Source: Phycisphaerales bacterium
GTDB lineage: Bacteria; Planctomycetota; Phycisphaerae; Phycisphaerales; UBA1924
Assembly: GCA_007693785.1 (NCBI GenBank)
Contig: RECY01000028.1
Coordinates: 1-64,000, forward strand
Length of the DNA stretch: 64,000 bases
Direction of reading: 5' to 3'
Shown here: positions 10,553 through 19,855 of the stretch, piece after piece
Numbering within the stretch: the stretch's first letter is position 1
Layout of the letters: every line of letters begins with the position of its first letter
Notes under the pieces: generated by a model
What the model saw: the letters and a program-made list of their open reading frames with translations, nothing else
What the model was told of the DNA's origin: nothing
Databases searched by the model: none
Translations under genes and position numbers: made by a program

Positions 10553-12847
10553 CTAGATGCGAACGCGTCGGAGGCGGAGCGCGTTGGCGACGACCGAGAC
10601 GGAGCTGAGGCTCATGGCGCCGGCGGCGAGCATCGGGTTCAGCAGCCAGCCGGTGAGCGGGTAGAGCACACCGGCGGCGACCGGGATCAGGGCGGCGTTA
10701 TAGGCGAAGGCCCAGAAGAGGTTCTGGCGGATGTTCCGCATGGTGGCGCGACCGATGCGGATCGCGCGGGGCACGCCCATCACGCCCGGGGCGATGAGGA
10801 CGACGTCGGCGGACTCGATCGCGACGTCGGTGCCGGCGGCGATCGCGATGCCGACGTCGGCGGTCGCGAGGGCGGGGGCGTCGTTGATGCCGTCGCCGAC
10901 GAACGCGACGGGCCCGAGCTCGCGTTGCGCGTCCCGCACCGCCTCGGCCTTTTGTTCGGGCAGGACCTCGCTCCGGACGCGCGAGATGCCGACGCGGCCC
11001 GCGATCGCGCGGGCGGTGCGCTCGCGGTCGCCGGTGACGAGTTCGGTGGTCAGACGCATCGCGTGGAGGGTGCGCACGCTCTCCTCGGCGTCGGGCTTGA
11101 GGGGATCGCTGATCGCGAAGCAGGCGACGGCATTCGCGCCGATCGCAACAAAGACCGGTGTCTTGCCCGCTGCGGCAAAGCGGTCGGCGTCGGGCTCGAG
11201 CGGGTCGGGATCGATCCCGAGTTCGCGGAGCCACGCCGCCGAACCAACGCTGACGTGCGCGCCTTCCACACGCGCGCGCACGCCGCGGGCGGGGCGGGAT
11301 TCGAAGGCCGTGATCGTTGAGAGGGCGAGCCCTCGCGACTCCGCTTCGGCGACGACGGCTCGCGCAAGCGGATGCTCGGATCGTGTCTCAACGCTCGCGG
11401 CCAGGCGAAGGGCTTGATGCTCGGTGGTGCGTTCGTGCGGGCTTTGAGCGCGGAGCACCACGTCGGTGAGCGATGGGGCGCCGGCTGTGAGGGTGCCGGT
11501 CTTGTCGAGCAGGACGCCCTGGACGCTGGCGATGCGCTGGAGGGCGTCGCCGCGTCGGAAGAGCACGCCGAGCGTCGCGCCTCGACCGGTGGCGACCATG
11601 ATCGAGGTCGGCGTCGCGAGCCCCATGGCGCACGGGCAGGCGATGATGAGCACGGCGACCGCGTTCGAGACCGCCATCGCGAACGCCGGCTCGGGGCCAA
11701 GAAGCTGCCAGACGATGAAGGTGATCGCCGCAATGACGATGACAACTGGCACGAAGACGCTCGTGACGCGGTCCACGAGTGTCTGGATCGGGAGCTTGGC
11801 GGCCTGCGCCTCCCGGACCGTGCGCACGACCTGGCTCAGCACCGTGTCGCGACCGACACCGGTGGCGCGGATGATCAGCGAACCTGACTGCGCGACCGTG
11901 CCGCCGACAACGCGGTCGCCGGGTGTCCGGCGCTGGGGCTCGGGCTCGCCGGTGAGCATGGATTCGTCGACGAAGGCCTCGCCCTCGATCACCTCGGCGT
12001 CGGCCGCGATGCGCTCGCCGGGACGGACGACGATCTCGTCGCCAACGCGGAGCTGCTCGGCTGGCAGGTCCGTCTCGCGTCCGTCTCGTCGGACGCGAGC
12101 GGTCGCGGGGCGGAGCTTGAGCAGGGCGCGGATCGCGCCGGAGGTGCGCCCGCGGGCGCTCGCTTCGAGGTGCCGCCCGAGCAGGACGAGCGTGATGATG
12201 ACGGCCGACGCTTCGAAGTAGACGTGACGCGAGCCCTCGGGCAGGAGCGCGGGCGCGATCGTGACGAGGGCGGAATAGGCGAAAGCGGCGCTGGTGCCGA
12301 GCATGACCAAGGCGTTCATGTCCGGCGCGAGGCGTCGGAACGAGGCGAGCCCGGTCGTGTAAAAACGTCGCCCGGACCCGAACTGTACGATCGCGGCGAG
12401 CGTGAGCAGAACGAACCGAAGCGGGCGCTCGCCCATTGCGCCCATGATCGCGTGGTGGAACGCGGGGACGAGGTGTCCGCCCATTTCGATGACGACCAGC
12501 GGCGCGGTGCAGACGGCCGCGAGCGTCAGGTTGCGGCGCAGGCGGGCGTGCTCGGGGTCCGGTGTGTGGTCGTCGGTGGTGGCGTTTAGGTCGACGGTTT
12601 CGGCGTCGTAGCCCGCTTTGCGGATCGCTTCGGCGAGAGTTTCGGTGTCGATGCCGGGGTCGGTTTCCACGGCCGCGCTCGCGGCGGCGAGGTTGACCGA
12701 GGCGGCGCGCACCCCGGGCGTGCGCCGCAGGGCGCGCTCAACGCCCGCGACGCAGGTGGCGCAGTGCATGCCGGTGACGCGGAGCGTGGCGTGGTCGCTG
12801 GGGGCGCTGCGGTCGCTTGTCGGGGGCATCTCAAGAAGCTTACTCAC
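10553..12847 (-). CDS. copA: Copper-translocating P1B-type ATPase
   Basis: 764 aa. One N-terminal metal-binding domain with GMHCATC (Cys29, Cys32), then transmembrane helices, the actuator motif MLTGEP, the intramembrane metal site ACPCAMGLATP, the phosphorylation loop DKTGTLT, SEHPLA of the nucleotide domain, and GDGINDAPAL. The CPC site with an HMA domain marks a Cu(I)-type P1B-1 exporter. The start used is the GTG at 12847, whose GTGA overlaps the stop of the upstream kinase gene; an ATG at 12829 would remove only six residues. No copper chaperone or CueR-like regulator is nearby, and the coupling to an ECF sigma factor and kinase is unusual. Confidence 0.9.
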   Translation of the reverse strand: MSKLLEMPPTSDRSAPSDHATLRVTGMHCATCVAGVERALRRTPGVRAASVNLAAASAAVETDPGIDTETLAEAIRKAGYDAETVDLNATTDDHTPDPEHARLRRNLTLAAVCTAPLVVIEMGGHLVPAFHHAIMGAMGERPLRFVLLTLAAIVQFGSGRRFYTTGLASFRRLAPDMNALVMLGTSAAFAYSALVTIAPALLPEGSRHVYFEASAVIITLVLLGRHLEASARGRTSGAIRALLKLRPATARVRRDGRETDLPAEQLRVGDEIVVRPGERIAADAEVIEGEAFVDESMLTGEPEPQRRTPGDRVVGGTVAQSGSLIIRATGVGRDTVLSQVVRTVREAQAAKLPIQTLVDRVTSVFVPVVIVIAAITFIVWQLLGPEPAFAMAVSNAVAVLIIACPCAMGLATPTSIMVATGRGATLGVLFRRGDALQRIASVQGVLLDKTGTLTAGAPSLTDVVLRAQSPHERTTEHQALRLAASVETRSEHPLARAVVAEAESRGLALSTITAFESRPARGVRARVEGAHVSVGSAAWLRELGIDPDPLEPDADRFAAAGKTPVFVAIGANAVACFAISDPLKPDAEESVRTLHAMRLTTELVTGDRERTARAIAGRVGISRVRSEVLPEQKAEAVRDAQRELGPVAFVGDGINDAPALATADVGIAIAAGTDVAIESADVVLIAPGVMGVPRAIRIGRATMRNIRQNLFWAFAYNAALIPVAAGVLYPLTGWLLNPMLAAGAMSLSSVSVVANALRLRRVRI

Positions 12848-15351
12848 GGGGCGCGGGCGGGATTCGGGGTGATCGGTCCTGCGGCTCGGCGCTGGATGCG
12901 TTCGATGGTGGCGTCGAGCGTGTCGGCGTTCTCGCGATAGGCCTTCCGGGCGGCCTCGGCGGTGAGGCCGAGGTCGGCGAGTTGCGTGATCGCGTGCTCA
13001 AGGACGGCCTGCCCGGCGGGAAGGCCCTCGGTGCAGGCGGTCACGGTCGCGAGCGTGATGAACGCGTCGATGGTGTCGGGGTGCGCGGGGCCGAGGTGTT
13101 GGGCGAGGCCCGCGGCAGCGCGCTGCGCGAGCGGGCGGGCGCGCTCGAAGCGGGCGGCTCGGATGAGCGTGGAGGCGAGGTTGTTGGTCGCGGTCAGCGT
13201 GCCCGGGGCGTCCTCGCCCAGCAGCGCGGTGCGCCCTTCCAGCACGCGCTCGCGGATCGGGATCGCGTCTTCGGCGCGGTCGAGCTGGCTCAGCGCGCTG
13301 GCGAGGTTGTTCAGCGTGGTGAGCGTGTGGATGTGGTGGGGCCCGAGGATGGTCTCGGCGGCCTCGGCCGCGCGACGGGCGTACGGGAGTGCCTCGGCGG
13401 GCTCGCCGAGCTCCAGGTGCGTGTACGCGAGGTTCGAGCTGAGCGGGATGATGAACATGTGCGCGCGCCCAAAGCGCTGCTCCACGATCTCGAGCAGCTC
13501 GGCCATCGCGTCGATCGATCGCCTGGGCTCGCCGGCGTCCTCGTAGAGCGTCGCAAGGTTGCTGAGCGCGCGGAAACGCTGGAGCGGGCGGTCGTGCGAG
13601 CGTTCGGCGGCGGTCTCGAAGGCGGCTTGGGCCTCGGCCAGCTTGCCCGTGCTCATGAGCGCGACGCCGAGGTCGTTCCAGGCGCGGACCGTGATCGGGT
13701 CGTGCAGCCCGCGGGTGTGCTCGAGCTTGGGGATGAGCTCGAGAAGTGCGGCGGCGCCGGCGTCGGCACGCTCGGTCAGGACCAGGCTCGACGCGCGCGC
13801 CGCCGCGGGACGGTAGCGCTCGGGGTGCGCCCCCAAGAGTTCGGCGGCGGCGGTCTCGGCGTGGGCGAGCAACGCCCCGGCCACCTCGAGATCGCCCAGC
13901 GAAATCAGCACCTCCGCCAGCGTCGAACGCATCGCGGTTTCGACGGCCGGGGTCGTGGCGAGCGCGGCGTCGGTGCGCTCGGCGGCGGCGCGGACGATCT
14001 CGATGATCGGTGTGGTTGGGCCGTCCAGCTCCGGCGCGGCGCGGGCGAAGACCTCTTCCTGCATGAAGGCGTTGATCGCGTTGGTGATCGCGAGCTGCTC
14101 TTCGGCGCGGGCCGTCGCGTGGCGGGCTTCGAAGAAGCCGATCACCGCGGCGACGGTCGTGATCGTCACCGCGGCGGCTGCGACGAGAATCGTCGCCGTC
14201 TCGCCCGGGTGACGCCTGGCGAGGCGGAACAGGCGCGTCGGCGTCGCGATCGGGCGGCTTTCGACCGGCTCGTGGCGCAGCCAGCGCCCGAGTTCGGCCG
14301 CGAACGACTCGGCGCTCGGGAAGCGACGCGCCGGGTTCTTGTCCAGCGATCGCAGCACGATCGCGTCGAGGTCCCCCCGCAGGCGTGCGGCGCGGCGAGC
14401 GGCGTGGGCGCGCCCGAAGCGGTCCGGATCGACGGCTTCGCTGGGCTTCCGCGGCGTCTGCTCGCGGATCATCCGGTACAAACGTGCCGGGTCGTGGTCC
14501 GCATCCGCTGGATCGAGCGGCGGGCGCGCGGTCAGCAGTTCGTAGAGCACGGCGCCGAGGGCGTAGACGTCCGATCGCACGTCCGGCGGCTCACCGGGGC
14601 GGGTTTGTTCGGGGGCCATATAGCTCGGCGTGCCGACGGGCGCGAGGTTCATGGTCAGGAGCTTGCCGTCGAAGGCCGAGCCCGTCAGCGCCCGCGCGAT
14701 GCCGAAGTCGATGACCACCGGCTCGGGCCCGGTGGGGGTCTGTCGAAGCAGGATGTTCGCGGGCTTGAGATCGCGGTGGATCAGCCCGCGCTGGTGCGCG
14801 CGGTGGACCGGGGCGCACGCGGCGGCGATGCACTCGACGGCGGCCTCCGGCGAAGTCCGGATCTCCGGCGCGTCCCACGCGACCGGCTCGCCCTCGACCA
14901 GCTCCGTTACGAGGTAATGGCGGCCGTGCGCGTCCACGCCCGAGTCGAGGTACCGCGCGACGCCGGGGTGGTCCACCGCGGCGAGCGCGAGCGCTTCGGC
15001 TTCAAAGCGCGCGGTCGCCTCGGCCGAGGCGAACCCGGGGGGCATCAGCTTGAGCGCGACGCGCCGCTCCACCGGGTCCGTCTGCTCGGCGCGGTAGACC
15101 TCCCCCATCCCGCCCGAGCCCAGACGCTCGAGCAGGCGGTAGGGCCCGACATGGGTCACCGCTTCCGCAGGGGAGGTTGGGCCGCGAGGCTCGTCGTCGT
15201 GGTGGGCGAGGAGCTCGCGCGCCATGGCCGCCGCTTCCGGATCGCTCGCCTCGGCCCGGCGCACCACCGATGCGCGATCCTCCGGCGGGTGATCGATCGC
15301 TTCCAGAAAGATCGCCCGCGCCTGCGCGTGGCGACGCGTCGCCGGGTTCAT
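12844..15351 (-). CDS. Membrane Ser/Thr protein kinase with C-terminal TPR repeats
   Basis: 835 aa from the ATG at 15351, which overlaps the sigma-factor stop as ATGA. A helical N-terminal segment (1-65) precedes a Hanks-type kinase domain: glycine loop RLGSGGMGEVY (76-86), catalytic Lys101 in VALKLM, HRDLKPANILL near residue 190, and VIDFGIARAL. A hydrophobic segment at about 375-400 (VAAAAVTITTVAAVIGFF) is a single membrane span. The C-terminal 400 residues are TPR/kinesin-light-chain-like repeats such as NDLGVALMSTGKLAEAQAAF and TLNNLASALSQLDRAEDAI, probably periplasmic and ligand- or partner-binding. The layout is that of planctomycete kinases paired with ECF sigma factors. Its stop overlaps the copA start. 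Confidence 0.9.
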   Translation of the reverse strand: MNPATRRHAQARAIFLEAIDHPPEDRASVVRRAEASDPEAAAMARELLAHHDDEPRGPTSPAEAVTHVGPYRLLERLGSGGMGEVYRAEQTDPVERRVALKLMPPGFASAEATARFEAEALALAAVDHPGVARYLDSGVDAHGRHYLVTELVEGEPVAWDAPEIRTSPEAAVECIAAACAPVHRAHQRGLIHRDLKPANILLRQTPTGPEPVVIDFGIARALTGSAFDGKLLTMNLAPVGTPSYMAPEQTRPGEPPDVRSDVYALGAVLYELLTARPPLDPADADHDPARLYRMIREQTPRKPSEAVDPDRFGRAHAARRAARLRGDLDAIVLRSLDKNPARRFPSAESFAAELGRWLRHEPVESRPIATPTRLFRLARRHPGETATILVAAAAVTITTVAAVIGFFEARHATARAEEQLAITNAINAFMQEEVFARAAPELDGPTTPIIEIVRAAAERTDAALATTPAVETAMRSTLAEVLISLGDLEVAGALLAHAETAAAELLGAHPERYRPAAARASSLVLTERADAGAAALLELIPKLEHTRGLHDPITVRAWNDLGVALMSTGKLAEAQAAFETAAERSHDRPLQRFRALSNLATLYEDAGEPRRSIDAMAELLEIVEQRFGRAHMFIIPLSSNLAYTHLELGEPAEALPYARRAAEAAETILGPHHIHTLTTLNNLASALSQLDRAEDAIPIRERVLEGRTALLGEDAPGTLTATNNLASTLIRAARFERARPLAQRAAAGLAQHLGPAHPDTIDAFITLATVTACTEGLPAGQAVLEHAITQLADLGLTAEAARKAYRENADTLDATIERIQRRAAGPITPNPARAP

Positions 15352-15851
15352 CGTTCGCCCCCGGAAAGCTCTCGGCGGAGCCATGCTTTGGCGAACGCCC
15401 AGTCGTTCTCGGCCGTGCGGAGGCTGATGCCAAGCGCTTGCGCGACCTGCGGCATGCTGAGCCCGCCGAACAGGCGCATCGTGACCACGTCCGCCTGGCG
15501 GGGGTCGAGCTCGGCGAGCTTGGCGAGCGCCTCGTCGAGTTCGAGCACGTCGTGGGCCTGGTGGGTGGCGGCGGGGTCGGTGCTCAGGCTGAGGGTGGGG
15601 CGCCCGCCGCCGCGTTTGATGCGGTTGCGTCGGCGGGCGTGATCGACCAGGATCTGGCGGCACTGGCGCGCCGCTCGGCGGAGCAGCTCGCCCCGGTCCA
15701 CCCCCGCCGCGCCGCCCGAATCGATCAAACGCACCACCGCCTCGTTCGCCAGGTCGGTCGCGCAGAGCGTGTGCCCGCGTCGCTCGGACCGGAGTTGACC
15801 GGCCGCCACGCGACGGATCTCGGCGTACAGCGTCTGGCTCGCGTCCTGCAC
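15348..15851 (-). CDS. ECF-type RNA polymerase sigma factor
   Basis: 167 aa from a GTG at 15851 with an AGGGGA site just upstream. Region 2 is seen in HTLCATDLANEAVVRL and AARQCRQILVDHARRR; region 4 is the helix-turn-helix QADVVTMRLFGGLSMPQVAQALGISLRTAENDW. This matches the ECF class often found with Ser/Thr kinases in planctomycetes. It has no adjacent anti-sigma factor with a zinc motif; control may instead come through phosphorylation by the kinase translated from the overlapping gene. It heads a three-gene unit (sigma, kinase, copA) with 4-bp overlaps at both junctions. Confidence 0.9.
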   Translation of the reverse strand: MQDASQTLYAEIRRVAAGQLRSERRGHTLCATDLANEAVVRLIDSGGAAGVDRGELLRRAARQCRQILVDHARRRNRIKRGGGRPTLSLSTDPAATHQAHDVLELDEALAKLAELDPRQADVVTMRLFGGLSMPQVAQALGISLRTAENDWAFAKAWLRRELSGGER

Positions 15852-16070: not shown

Positions 16071-16143
16071 GCCGCCTTAGCTCAGTTGGTAGAGCATCGG
16101 TTTTGTAAACCGACGGTCGCCGGTTCGAGTCCGGCAGGCGGCT
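16071..16143 (+). tRNA. tRNA-Thr (anticodon TGT)
   Basis: A complete 73-nt cloverleaf: acceptor GCCGCCT paired with AGGCGGC, D-loop with AGTTGGT, anticodon stem TCGGT/ACCGA with loop TTTGTAA (anticodon TGT at 16104-16106), and T-arm GCCGG-TTCGAGT-CCGGC. Discriminator T at 16143; CCA is not encoded. It reads the codon ACA. A short T-run follows at once. Confidence 0.95.
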
Positions 16144-16265: not shown

Positions 16266-16766
16266 GTGCTGACCCGTGTTGCGGTCATTTTCGTGGTCGC
16301 GTTCGGCTCGCTCTCGTTGGTTGAGGGCGGGCTGCGGTGCCTTTGGGGTGGTTTGTCGGGTTGCGGCGGGTGCGTCTCGGCGTGTGTCGAGGGGCGGATG
16401 TCGGAGCCTTGCACTTCGGGCGACTCGTGTGATTTGGCGTCGCCCGGGATCGCGGAGCGTTCGGGTTGCTGCGGCTCGCTGTCGGGCTCGGCGTGCGCCG
16501 TTGCTGGGCAGACGTGCTGCCCGCGAGGGCCGTTGGATTGCGAGCCTTGCCCCTTATGCCGCGGCCCGGCGCGCCAGCCGATGCCACCGGCGCCGCGGGA
16601 CGGGCGTGCGGTCGCGGAGGTCTTTGAGGCGACGCCGCGGACGGTGAGCGTGATGTCCTGGACCCCGGCCGAGCCGCGTTGGCTGAGCTGGGATCGTCCT
16701 TGCGACCGGGCCCGCCCCGCGGACGTGGCGGCTCGCCTGGCGTGGTTGTGCGTCTGGACGACATAG
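16266..16766 (+). CDS. Possible exported Cys-rich protein
   Basis: 166 aa from a GTG at 16266. The N-terminus LTRVAVIFVVAFGSLSL is a plausible signal peptide or membrane anchor. It contains 16 Cys, 14 of them between residues 25 and 98, including CGGC (33-36), two CC pairs (68-69, 84-85) and overlapping CxxC motifs (92-98). The C-terminal 65 residues are Pro/Arg/Ala-rich with little Cys. Third codon positions are mainly G or C, as in neighbouring genes, which supports coding. No Shine-Dalgarno site is visible, and the family is not recognised. It lies between tRNA-Thr and a second Cys-rich gene. A soft-metal-binding or disulfide-rich envelope role is inference. Confidence 0.55.
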   Translation: MLTRVAVIFVVAFGSLSLVEGGLRCLWGGLSGCGGCVSACVEGRMSEPCTSGDSCDLASPGIAERSGCCGSLSGSACAVAGQTCCPRGPLDCEPCPLCRGPARQPMPPAPRDGRAVAEVFEATPRTVSVMSWTPAEPRWLSWDRPCDRARPADVAARLAWLCVWTT

Positions 16767-16991
16767 CGGGCGGCGCGTGCGCGCGCTGCAGCCGCGGGCC
16801 CGTGCTTCGGGCCCTGGCGGGGTTCTTCACGAGCCCCGTGTTGTCCGGAAAGCGTTGTCATTTTTTTGAAACGTGGAAACGCACTGTGTGAAGCGTTTGG
16901 CGCGGACGGGCCGGTTTGGGCCCGTGGCGCGGAACGCTCGAAGATGAACCACAAAGCCGGATCGGTGAGATCCGGAGCAAGGATTTGCGTC

Positions 16992-17327
16992 ATGAAGTTT
17001 GCGATCGCGATGTTTATTGTGCTGGCGGCTGCGGGGCTCTTCCTGCTGTCGAGCCAGGGCGCTTCGGCCCAGACGGGCCTGCAGGCCGGCGCGTGCTGCG
17101 TCTGCTGCGAGGAGGGTTGCCCGTGCTGCGAGGACGGGTGCTCCTGCAACACCGGCGGGTGCTGCTGCCCGTGCTGCGAGAACTGCTGCGGCGGCGTGTG
17201 CGACGCGCCCTGCTGCGAGGCCTCGGGGTGCTGTGACACGGGCGCCAGCGCCGAGGCGACGGGCGACAAGGCCCCGGCCGAGTGCGGGCAGGGCGTGTGC
17301 TCGGAGAAGGTCGGCTGCGCCGGGTGA
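16992..17327 (+). CDS. Small exported protein with extreme Cys density
   Basis: 111 aa from the ATG at 16992, with AAGGA about nine bases upstream. Residues 1-27 form a clear signal peptide ending ASAQ. The mature chain has 24 Cys, 21 of them in the 47 residues 35-81, arranged as CC pairs, CxC, one CCC, and CC-x2-3-C spacings separated by Gly, Glu and Asp. Three more follow at 98, 103 and 109. No known fold is recognised. Metallothioneins have comparable Cys content but are cytoplasmic. Possible roles are extracytoplasmic metal binding (Cu, Zn, Cd) or a disulfide-rich surface peptide. It is not adjacent to secretion or modification genes. A very strong terminator follows, so it is expressed as a discrete unit or as the end of a two-gene unit. 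Confidence 0.75.
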   Translation: MKFAIAMFIVLAAAGLFLLSSQGASAQTGLQAGACCVCCEEGCPCCEDGCSCNTGGCCCPCCENCCGGVCDAPCCEASGCCDTGASAEATGDKAPAECGQGVCSEKVGCAG

Positions 17328-17352
17328 GCCCGCGTCGTTGACCGCGTGATGT

Positions 17353-17416
17353 GGCCGCCTTGGGGCGGCCGCGATTGACCATCGGCCGGCGTCCGCGCGA
17401 CGCCGGCCGATTTTTT
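17353..17416 (+). terminator. Strong terminator after Cys-rich gene
   Basis: A 7-bp GGCCGCC/GGCGGCC hairpin (17353-17370) is followed by a perfect 13-bp stem (17381-17393/17399-17411, loop CGCGC) and six T ending at 17416. Confidence 0.92.
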
Positions 17417-17647: not shown

Positions 17648-18304
17648 ATGATGCGTGTGGTTTCAATGGCGGCCGCGGTCGCGATGGTTTCGGGCGCGGC
17701 GATGGCCGCCCCGTCGACGTTCGGCGTCGGGAGCGACCCGGAGCTGGCCGGCCTGCTCCAGAACGAGCTTTTCGTGGCCGAGGGTCGCACGGGCAACAAC
17801 GCGCCCAGCGGCGACTGGGAGCTCGGGATCACGACCAACAACCCGTACACCGTGCGCGACCAGGCGCAGCGGAGCTGGACGGCGGGCGAGTTCGTCGCGT
17901 TCAGCCTGACCTACGACAGCTCGACGGGTGACGTGAGCTACGTCTTCGGCGACGAGGTCCTGAGTTGGAACGTTGTGGGCAATGTGGGGAACATCTATCT
18001 CCGCGCTCGGGCGACCGAGGGCGAGGTCATGCTCCGCGGGCTGAACCTCAACGGCTTCGACCTGAGCGCCGTCGTCGGCGCGGGCGGGGACGCGGGCTCG
18101 CTGGACATCCTCGGGATCAGCGGCGCGGGCTCGCGCTTCTCGCTGATCGGCGAGGCGATGATCGATCCGGACGGGGGGCGCGGGAGTAACCCCGCCTTCC
18201 AGATCAAGGTTGACACCGCCCCGATGCCGATCATCCCCACCCCGACCGCCGCGGGCCTCGGCCTGCTGGGCCTGGGCGGGCTGGCGGCCCGTCGGCGTCG
18301 CTAA
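17648..18304 (+). CDS. Secreted protein with PEP-CTERM-like Arg-tailed C-terminus
   Basis: 218 aa from the first of two adjacent ATG codons (17648, 17651), with GAGAGGA upstream. Signal peptide about residues 1-21 ending AMAA. The mature part starts with a segment rich in acidic residues (ELAGLLQNELFVAEGRTGN), then GDWELGITTNNPY, and is predicted all-beta. The overall look is close to the 'choice-of-anchor' families of exported proteins, though this assignment is tentative. The C-terminus is PTPTAAGLGLLGLGGLAARRRR-type: Pro/Thr linker, hydrophobic stretch, four Arg. This sorting signal presumably leads to cleavage and surface or extracellular release. Followed by a strong terminator; monocistronic. 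Confidence 0.75.
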   Translation: MMRVVSMAAAVAMVSGAAMAAPSTFGVGSDPELAGLLQNELFVAEGRTGNNAPSGDWELGITTNNPYTVRDQAQRSWTAGEFVAFSLTYDSSTGDVSYVFGDEVLSWNVVGNVGNIYLRARATEGEVMLRGLNLNGFDLSAVVGAGGDAGSLDILGISGAGSRFSLIGEAMIDPDGGRGSNPAFQIKVDTAPMPIIPTPTAAGLGLLGLGGLAARRRR

Positions 18305-18448: not shown

Positions 18449-19855
18449 ATGACCACGCCCAGCGTCCATCCCTCGAACCAGCCGACCGCCTTTCACTGGG
18501 ACCCGCAACCCGAAGCGGCTGCGTACGTGCAGGGTCTGATCCGGGCCTGTCTGGACGCCTGCCCACAGGCGGCGGACCTCGCCGAGCGGATGCAGACGCA
18601 GACCGGCACGCGATTCCTGGACTGGGTGGACTATGTGCAGCTCCCGGCGAGCGACAAGGCGCGGGCCGAGCTCGCCAGCGTCGGCTTCGAGCCCAGCGGT
18701 GAAGCGGCGCCGGGCGAGGCGTTTGTGAATCACAAGGGTATCTTCCCGGCGGTGGTGCTCGCCGACGGCCCGCGTCGTGTGGCGATCAAGGTCGACGCCG
18801 TCGCGGATTTTCTCGCGGTCTGGCGATTGGCGGGGGCGCACGTCGAGGGCGAGGCGGGGGCGCGGATGCGCCAGGCGCGGGCGTTCGTCGGCGAGGGCGC
18901 GGAGATGTGGGTCATCGAGCGACACGGCTTCCGCGGGTTTGTCTCGCCGGCGGTGGATCACAAGCTGAGCTGGAAGGCGGCCGAGCATCTGGAGCGGCTC
19001 TGCCGTCGCCAGCGGGCGTTTGACAGCGACGGCGTTGGGCGCGACGACGCGGGGTTTGACGAGGCGCACGCGGTGGTCGATGAAGCCGTGCGGGATCTTG
19101 GGCAGGACTGGGCGTGCGACCTGTTCTTCGAGAGCGAGCGTCGCTACTGGCAGCGACGGAACCGGGCGGCCCGCGTGCAGAAGGCCCGGCAGGACACGCT
19201 CGGGCTCGGCTGGGCCAACCACGATCACCACACGTATCGCTCAAGCCGGCACTGCTACTCGCGGCTGATCTCGCTGCTGGAGAAGATGGGGTTTCACTGC
19301 CGCGAGCGGTTCTATGCGGGCGAGGAGGCGGGCTGGGGCGCGCAGGTGCTCGAGCAGCCGGTGACGAACATCGTGATCTTCGCGGACGTGGACATGAGCC
19401 CTGCGGAGATCGCGGGCGACTTTGCGCACGAGGGGCTGCACGAGACTCGCCCGGAGCTCGGGACCGTCGGGCTGTGGTGCGCGTTGCACGGGGAGAGCGC
19501 GTTGCAGGCGGGGATGCACCACCTGGAGTGTCAGTTTGATTGGCACGCGCTGAAGGCGCAGCTCGAGGCCGAGGCGGGGATCAAGACGATGGACCCGTTC
19601 ACAACGTTCCCGTTTTTGCGTCAGGCGTTTACCGAGGGGGAGCGGTGGGCGGTGTCGCACGCGCGGGTGGCCGAGCTGGAGGCGGCGGGGAAGATCACGC
19701 CGGAGCAGGGGGAGCAGTTCCGCACCAAGGGCGCGATCGGGAGCCACCTGGAGAACCTGGAGCGGAACGACGGGTACAAGGGCTTCAACCAGCAGGGCGT
19801 GAGCGACATCATCAGCCGGACGGACCCGCGGAAGCTCGTCAGCAGCGGGACGTAA
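18449..19855 (+). CDS. Conserved hypothetical protein upstream of proBA
   Basis: 468 aa, ATG at 18449 with GGGAG upstream. No signal peptide or membrane span. Notable segments are ANHDHHTYRSSR (five His/Asp in a short run), NIVIFADVDMSP, DFAHEGLHETRPELGTVGLW, and a C-terminal YKGFNQQGVSDIISRTDPRKLV. The two His-rich motifs could bind a metal, and HEGLHE resembles a metallohydrolase-like site, but no catalytic family can be assigned. Only 25 bp separate it from proB, so it is probably co-transcribed with the proline genes; whether it acts in the same pathway is unknown. Confidence 0.75.
   Translation: MTTPSVHPSNQPTAFHWDPQPEAAAYVQGLIRACLDACPQAADLAERMQTQTGTRFLDWVDYVQLPASDKARAELASVGFEPSGEAAPGEAFVNHKGIFPAVVLADGPRRVAIKVDAVADFLAVWRLAGAHVEGEAGARMRQARAFVGEGAEMWVIERHGFRGFVSPAVDHKLSWKAAEHLERLCRRQRAFDSDGVGRDDAGFDEAHAVVDEAVRDLGQDWACDLFFESERRYWQRRNRAARVQKARQDTLGLGWANHDHHTYRSSRHCYSRLISLLEKMGFHCRERFYAGEEAGWGAQVLEQPVTNIVIFADVDMSPAEIAGDFAHEGLHETRPELGTVGLWCALHGESALQAGMHHLECQFDWHALKAQLEAEAGIKTMDPFTTFPFLRQAFTEGERWAVSHARVAELEAAGKITPEQGEQFRTKGAIGSHLENLERNDGYKGFNQQGVSDIISRTDPRKLVSSGT

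Follow-up and report, generated by a model that had tools for sequence, protein, structure and literature searches.

The window analysed here is a 64-kb stretch forming the first part of a 328-kb contig, from a genome of 3.06 Mb that is 95% complete. Two Cys-rich frames on its forward strand, ORF1 (16266–16766) and ORF2 (16992–17327), sit between a tRNA-Thr(TGT) gene at 16071–16143 (+), as the initial annotation had placed them, and a choice-of-anchor W protein (17648–18304); an Rfam scan returned tRNA only. ORF2 begins with ATG and encodes 111 residues, 24 of which are Cys, and recounting reproduced the earlier figure of 21 Cys within a 47-residue core (residues 35–81, 17094–17234, +). A Shine-Dalgarno-like AAGGA (16979–16983, +) lies 8 nt 5′ of the ATG, bearing out the ribosome site noted earlier. 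Immediately upstream of this site is a 7-bp perfect hairpin, CCGGATC-GGTGA-GATCCGG (16957–16975, +), whose local fold is no better than that of shuffled sequences (z −0.57), and no sigma-70-type promoter was found at the locus. The frame is followed by an intrinsic terminator-like element (17381–17416, +) in which a hairpin of 13 pairs (17381–17411) runs into a T tail, in agreement with the strong terminator described before. The N-terminal segment MKFAIAMFIVLAAAGLFLLSSQGASA (16992–17069, +) resembles a signal peptide, with a mean Kyte-Doolittle hydropathy of 2.9 over its best 12 residues and a cleavage-like site, ASA|QTG, that puts the presumed cut after residue 26. The complete translation is MKFAIAMFIVLAAAGLFLLSSQGASA|QTGLQAGACCVCCEEGCPCCEDGCSCNTGGCCCPCCENCCGGVCDAPCCEASGCCDTGASAEATGDKAPAECGQGVCSEKVGCAG, the bar marking the cleavage point thus assigned. 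The signal peptide claimed in the initial annotation stands as a prediction by inspection and hydropathy, and ORF2 is a putative exported protein.

The coding status of both frames was assessed with a codon score trained on synonymous-codon preferences in 22 long genes called in the window, in which leave-one-out windows of true genes were compared with wrong-frame windows. ORF2 scored 0.195, at the 31st percentile of true-gene windows, a value matched by only 1.6% of wrong-frame windows. Because this gene-like score is accompanied by a ribosome site, a signal-like start and a terminator, ORF2 is, as judged from its sequence, a real gene. ORF1 gave a different picture. Its score of −0.08 lies under every one of the 50 true-gene windows, and 21% of the wrong-frame windows score at least as high; an earlier score computed from five genes (0.053) was low too. 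Its GTG start has no Shine-Dalgarno site upstream, and searches of 61 near relatives, 218 class genomes and plasmids yielded no homologue, the weak matches proving spurious on translation. The 16 Cys reported for ORF1 were counted again (16 in 166 codons, 9.6%), a level also seen in spurious frames: among 1149 mechanical ORFs of at least 100 aa, drawn from 319 kb of DNA of this genome and related ones, several spurious ones have 9–11% Cys. In the same set the Cys content of ORF2 (21.6%) far exceeds that of the next richest frame (11%). The single feature in favour of ORF1 is a strongly hydrophobic start, unusual among mechanical ORFs. ORF1 is thus probably no gene, or an atypical one, and its description as a real exported protein is poorly supported. 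Since ORF1 is doubtful, the proposed pair of exported proteins is unsupported and was not used as evidence.

The predicted mature ORF2 product has 85 residues, a mass of 8.1 kDa and a pI of 4.0. It contains 24 Cys (28%), arranged in nine CC and four CxC steps, with adjacent Cys pairs and one Cys triplet in the core, together with 12 acidic residues and two Lys; Phe, Trp, Tyr, His, Met, Ile and Arg are all absent. Repeat analysis of 17100–17244 (+) showed that a 37-nt unit containing CCE occurs there four times, in diverged copies 65–73% identical to the reference copy. The copies diverged around fixed Cys, with CCE kept in all four, and they do not form a simple tandem array. We take them as a sign of internal duplication; ORF2 would then have grown locally by duplication of the CCE unit, and its resemblance to metallothioneins described below would probably be convergence. 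The strong ligands left in such a chain are mainly thiolates and it has no hydrophobic core, so that metal clusters or disulfides appear to be the two realistic ways in which it could become ordered. The structure prediction suggested in the initial annotation, run as an AlphaFold single-sequence model, gave a pLDDT of 53 and was unusable.

Comparison of the ORF2 core with metallothionein domains identified a close match in Cys spacing. Residues 34–63 (ACCVCCEEGCPCCEDGCSCNTGGCCCPCCE) align without gaps to the alpha domain of human metallothionein-2, the letters of which were verified against PDB 1mhu, with agreement at 11 of 11 Cys and at the Gly of both Gly-Cys steps. ORF2 thereby satisfies the alpha-domain pattern CCxCCxxxCxxCxxxCxCx6CxCC in full. 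The block with all 11 positions (residues 35–62, 17094–17177, +) includes the matching G42 and G49 as well as three extra Cys, C45, C57 and C58. As it holds 14 Cys in 28 positions, partial pattern matches come easily, and the complete match was evaluated against shuffled cores. When the residues of the 47-residue core were shuffled 200,000 times it arose in 71 cases, and it arose in 25 of 200,000 shuffles that preserved the Cys-Cys gaps (about 1 in 8000). Among a panel of 15 metallothionein domain patterns, two of them PDB-verified, the alpha domain was the only one that stood out, with a single-pattern chance of about 1e-4; any panel pattern with at least nine Cys was fully covered in 0.5% of shuffles. 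The alpha-domain test was post hoc, chosen once the match had been noticed, and the panel-corrected chance is roughly 0.2–0.5%. For the beta domain (9 Cys) ORF2 covers 6 of 9 positions, which is the chance level (p 0.96). Identity to the alpha domain amounts to 13 of 30 residues. Because each identical residue is a Cys or one of the two Gly, the likeness is, at the level of sequence, a spacing match and no evidence of descent. Pfam Metallothio (PF00131) gave no match at the locus even at E 10, although the composition correction may hide one.

Homologue searches for ORF2 were negative throughout. No match was obtained in Pfam, NCBIfam or PDB sequences, and BLASTP with composition adjustment returned nothing. 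There was no homologue in 61 near relatives, in plasmids or viral contigs, or in 392 genomes of the phylum, where 11 weak matches were all spurious on translation. A GTDB seed scan with ORF2 peptides produced 63 seed matches, none of which was confirmed. When GTDB was scanned with a 7-Cys pattern taken from the alpha domain, most of the matches listed were repeats of the (TGC)n type or frames that are not genes, and no signal-bearing relative was among those listed. Cys-pattern scans of family, class and phylum genomes returned noise, the sole exception being an unrelated Cys-rich HEAT protein (L263). One further locus of the same genome (L002), which gave a short DNA match, lay outside any Cys-rich gene and was discarded. 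Downstream of ORF2, 18449–19855 encodes a 468-aa protein that has no Pfam or NCBIfam match yet is conserved in roughly one in three genomes of the family (best matches 52–64% identical), and so represents an uncharacterised family; no ORF2-like Cys-rich frame was found beside 20 of its orthologues. ORF2 therefore appears, by these searches, to be an orphan rather than to belong to any metallothionein family, and the searches gave no evolutionary evidence that the spacing is conserved. The initial annotation had held that a lack of homologues with conserved Cys spacing would speak against its proposal. None was found, and we regard this as weak counter-evidence, because HMMER and BLAST statistics penalise compositions of this type, so that a diverged relative could escape, and because the search set contained no same-genus genome.

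The absence of modification or transport genes noted previously is correct for the immediate flanks, where no metal-responsive regulator or transporter adjoins ORF2, but not at greater distance. The nearest metal gene, a copper-type (CopA-type) P1B ATPase with an HMA domain (10553–12847, −), scored 578.8 bits against an NCBIfam cut-off of 397 for copper-translocating ATPases. It lies 4.1 kb away on the opposite strand, outside the ORF2 transcription unit, and its proximity is therefore taken as a loose hint only. The same minus-strand region (10553–15851) contains an ECF sigma factor (Sigma70_ECF), then a long frame that by eye is serine/threonine-kinase-like, then the ATPase, with ends that touch or overlap, possibly an operon coupling signalling to copper export. 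The Sigma70_ECF gene agrees with the planctomycete origin given in the initial annotation. Searches for enzymes of disulfide formation gave no match to DSBA (PF01323) or VKOR (PF07884) in this 95% complete genome, while the same searches matched 9 and 3, respectively, of 14 control genomes. This disfavours a disulfide scaffold for ORF2, with other oxidases possible.

These observations lead us to a reading that we hold with moderate confidence, namely that ORF2 is a Sec-exported, acidic, Cys-dense protein that would fold around thiolate-bound soft metal ions and act in the manner of a metallothionein. The chain would pass through the inner membrane in an unfolded, reduced state and be trimmed by about 26 N-terminal residues; metal, most likely Cu(I), or Zn or Cd, would then give it its shape, either in the periplasm or on the cell surface. 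Residues 35–62 may form an alpha-domain-like cluster of the M4Cys11 type, and the other core Cys would add metal capacity. The role of ORF2 would be extracytoplasmic, to buffer metal or render it harmless after pumps such as the nearby CopA-type ATPase have expelled it. The sequence shows the gene, its signal-like N-terminus, its composition and its Cys spacing; from these we infer export, metal binding, the choice of metal and the link to CopA. The initial annotation had left soft-metal clusters and a dense disulfide scaffold side by side. The metal side gains from the gap-free alpha-domain fit, the lack of aromatics and His and the lack of DsbA/VKOR matches, with no backing from homologues; against it, a thiol-rich protein in the periplasm would be exposed to oxidation. 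A further step, put forward tentatively, is that the lineage may have independently evolved a metallothionein exported by Sec, with a first domain that arrived by convergence at exactly the Cys lattice of the vertebrate alpha domain; multi-metal thiolate buffering would thereby have moved from the cytosol to the periplasm.

The most serious competitor is a disulfide-linked envelope or surface protein whose Cys cross-link to one another or to other wall proteins, which we consider possible but distinctly less probable than metal-thiolate folding. An export-type N-terminus and an even number of Cys (24) would suit such a protein, and the PVC group offers precedents in Cys-rich wall-associated proteins, namely the YTV proteins (PMC8567305) and those of chlamydiae (PMC1403754). 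Another planctomycete family also has an exported 352-aa Cys-rich HEAT-domain protein. Its gene (L263:949–2094, −, equivalent to L277:5949–7094 in reverse-complement coordinates) encodes about 55 Cys, a HEAT_2 domain and CCPxxCC-type repeats, and is unrelated to ORF2 by BLASTP. The genome, however, has no match to the two disulfide-forming families searched, and ORF2 has neither hydrophobic nor aromatic core residues, while its adjacent Cys pairs and triplet would be awkward in an ordered disulfide fold. ORF2 is also small and without a recognised domain, and reports of YTV genes are confined to Planctomycetales (PMC8567305).

Two other origins deserve consideration. ORF2 could be a young or non-functional orphan, a real or nearly real frame enlarged as a TGC-rich unit was duplicated; whether or not it is expressed, it would have no metal function under selection. 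The internal repeats, the failure to find a homologue and the lack of a syntenic counterpart in 20 relatives that carry an orthologue of the downstream neighbour are what one would expect of such a sequence, yet its codon usage is that of an established gene, its ribosome site, signal-like start and terminator are all in place, and its repeat copies diverged around fixed Cys rather than forming a simple tandem array. We regard this origin as unlikely. That 11 of 11 Cys positions of the alpha domain coincide without a gap, along with two Gly, might alternatively suggest a eukaryotic metallothionein family member acquired horizontally and fused to a bacterial signal peptide. Such a transfer is very improbable given that the 13 identities in 30 residues are all Cys apart from the two Gly, that a beta domain is missing and PF00131 is negative, and that ORF2 combines host-like codon usage with internal repeats.

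The preferred reading, an exported protein with metallothionein-like action, can be set against known systems. ORF2 shares with the vertebrate metallothionein alpha domain (PF00131; PDB 1mhu, 4mt2) the 11 Cys positions, both Gly-Cys steps and the absence of aromatics. It differs in having three extra Cys within the block and more beyond it, a predicted signal peptide and no beta domain; it is acidic where vertebrate metallothionein is lysine-rich, and it has no HMM match. Its composition agrees with the broad metallothionein definition (<10 kDa, roughly 15–35% Cys, few or no aromatics), at 8.1 kDa and 28% Cys with no F, W, Y or H, and is similar to that of the small Cys-rich metal-thiolate proteins described under this name (PMC7558416). 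In contrast, metallothioneins are typically cytoplasmic and lack a signal peptide, whereas ORF2 has a signal-peptide-like N-terminus by inspection and hydropathy. If ORF2 does hold metal clusters outside the cytoplasm, a thiolate buffer would be workable there and the M4Cys11 spacing would be a clear case of convergence. None of the papers searched described a bacterial metallothionein exported by Sec; composition-corrected searches see proteins of the ORF2 type poorly, and more may be hidden.

The bacterial metallothioneins SmtA, BmtA and PmtA, as well as MymT, resemble ORF2 in being small and Cys-rich, with presumed soft-metal thiolate chemistry, but they are cytosolic or lack a signal peptide, unlike the signal-like start of ORF2. 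SmtA contains His as well as a zinc-finger fold. ORF2 covers 6 of 9 positions of the SmtA Cys pattern, the chance level, and has no Pfam or NCBIfam match to the SmtA/BmtA family. PmtA occurs on the Pseudomonas surface, yet has no signal peptide (PMC11237414). Csp1 is an exported Cys-based Cu(I) store, a Tat-exported four-helix bundle (PMC7558416) whose Cys point inward; it binds 13 Cu(I) and folds without metal. Both are Cys-rich and exported, ORF2 by prediction, but ORF2 has a Sec-like signal, no twin arginine in its N-terminus, contiguous CC and CxC steps, and no Pfam or NCBIfam match to Csp1. The Cys-rich YTV proteins of planctomycete walls (PMC8567305), for which cross-linking has been proposed, and the cross-linked chlamydial OmcA and OmcB are, as is predicted for ORF2, exported Cys-rich proteins of the PVC group. 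They are different families, and ORF2 showed no Pfam or NCBIfam match to YTV or Omc domains. By the tests run, ORF2 thus appears to fit none of the bacterial metallothioneins, Csp1 or YTV, and is best described as a candidate that may work like a metallothionein.
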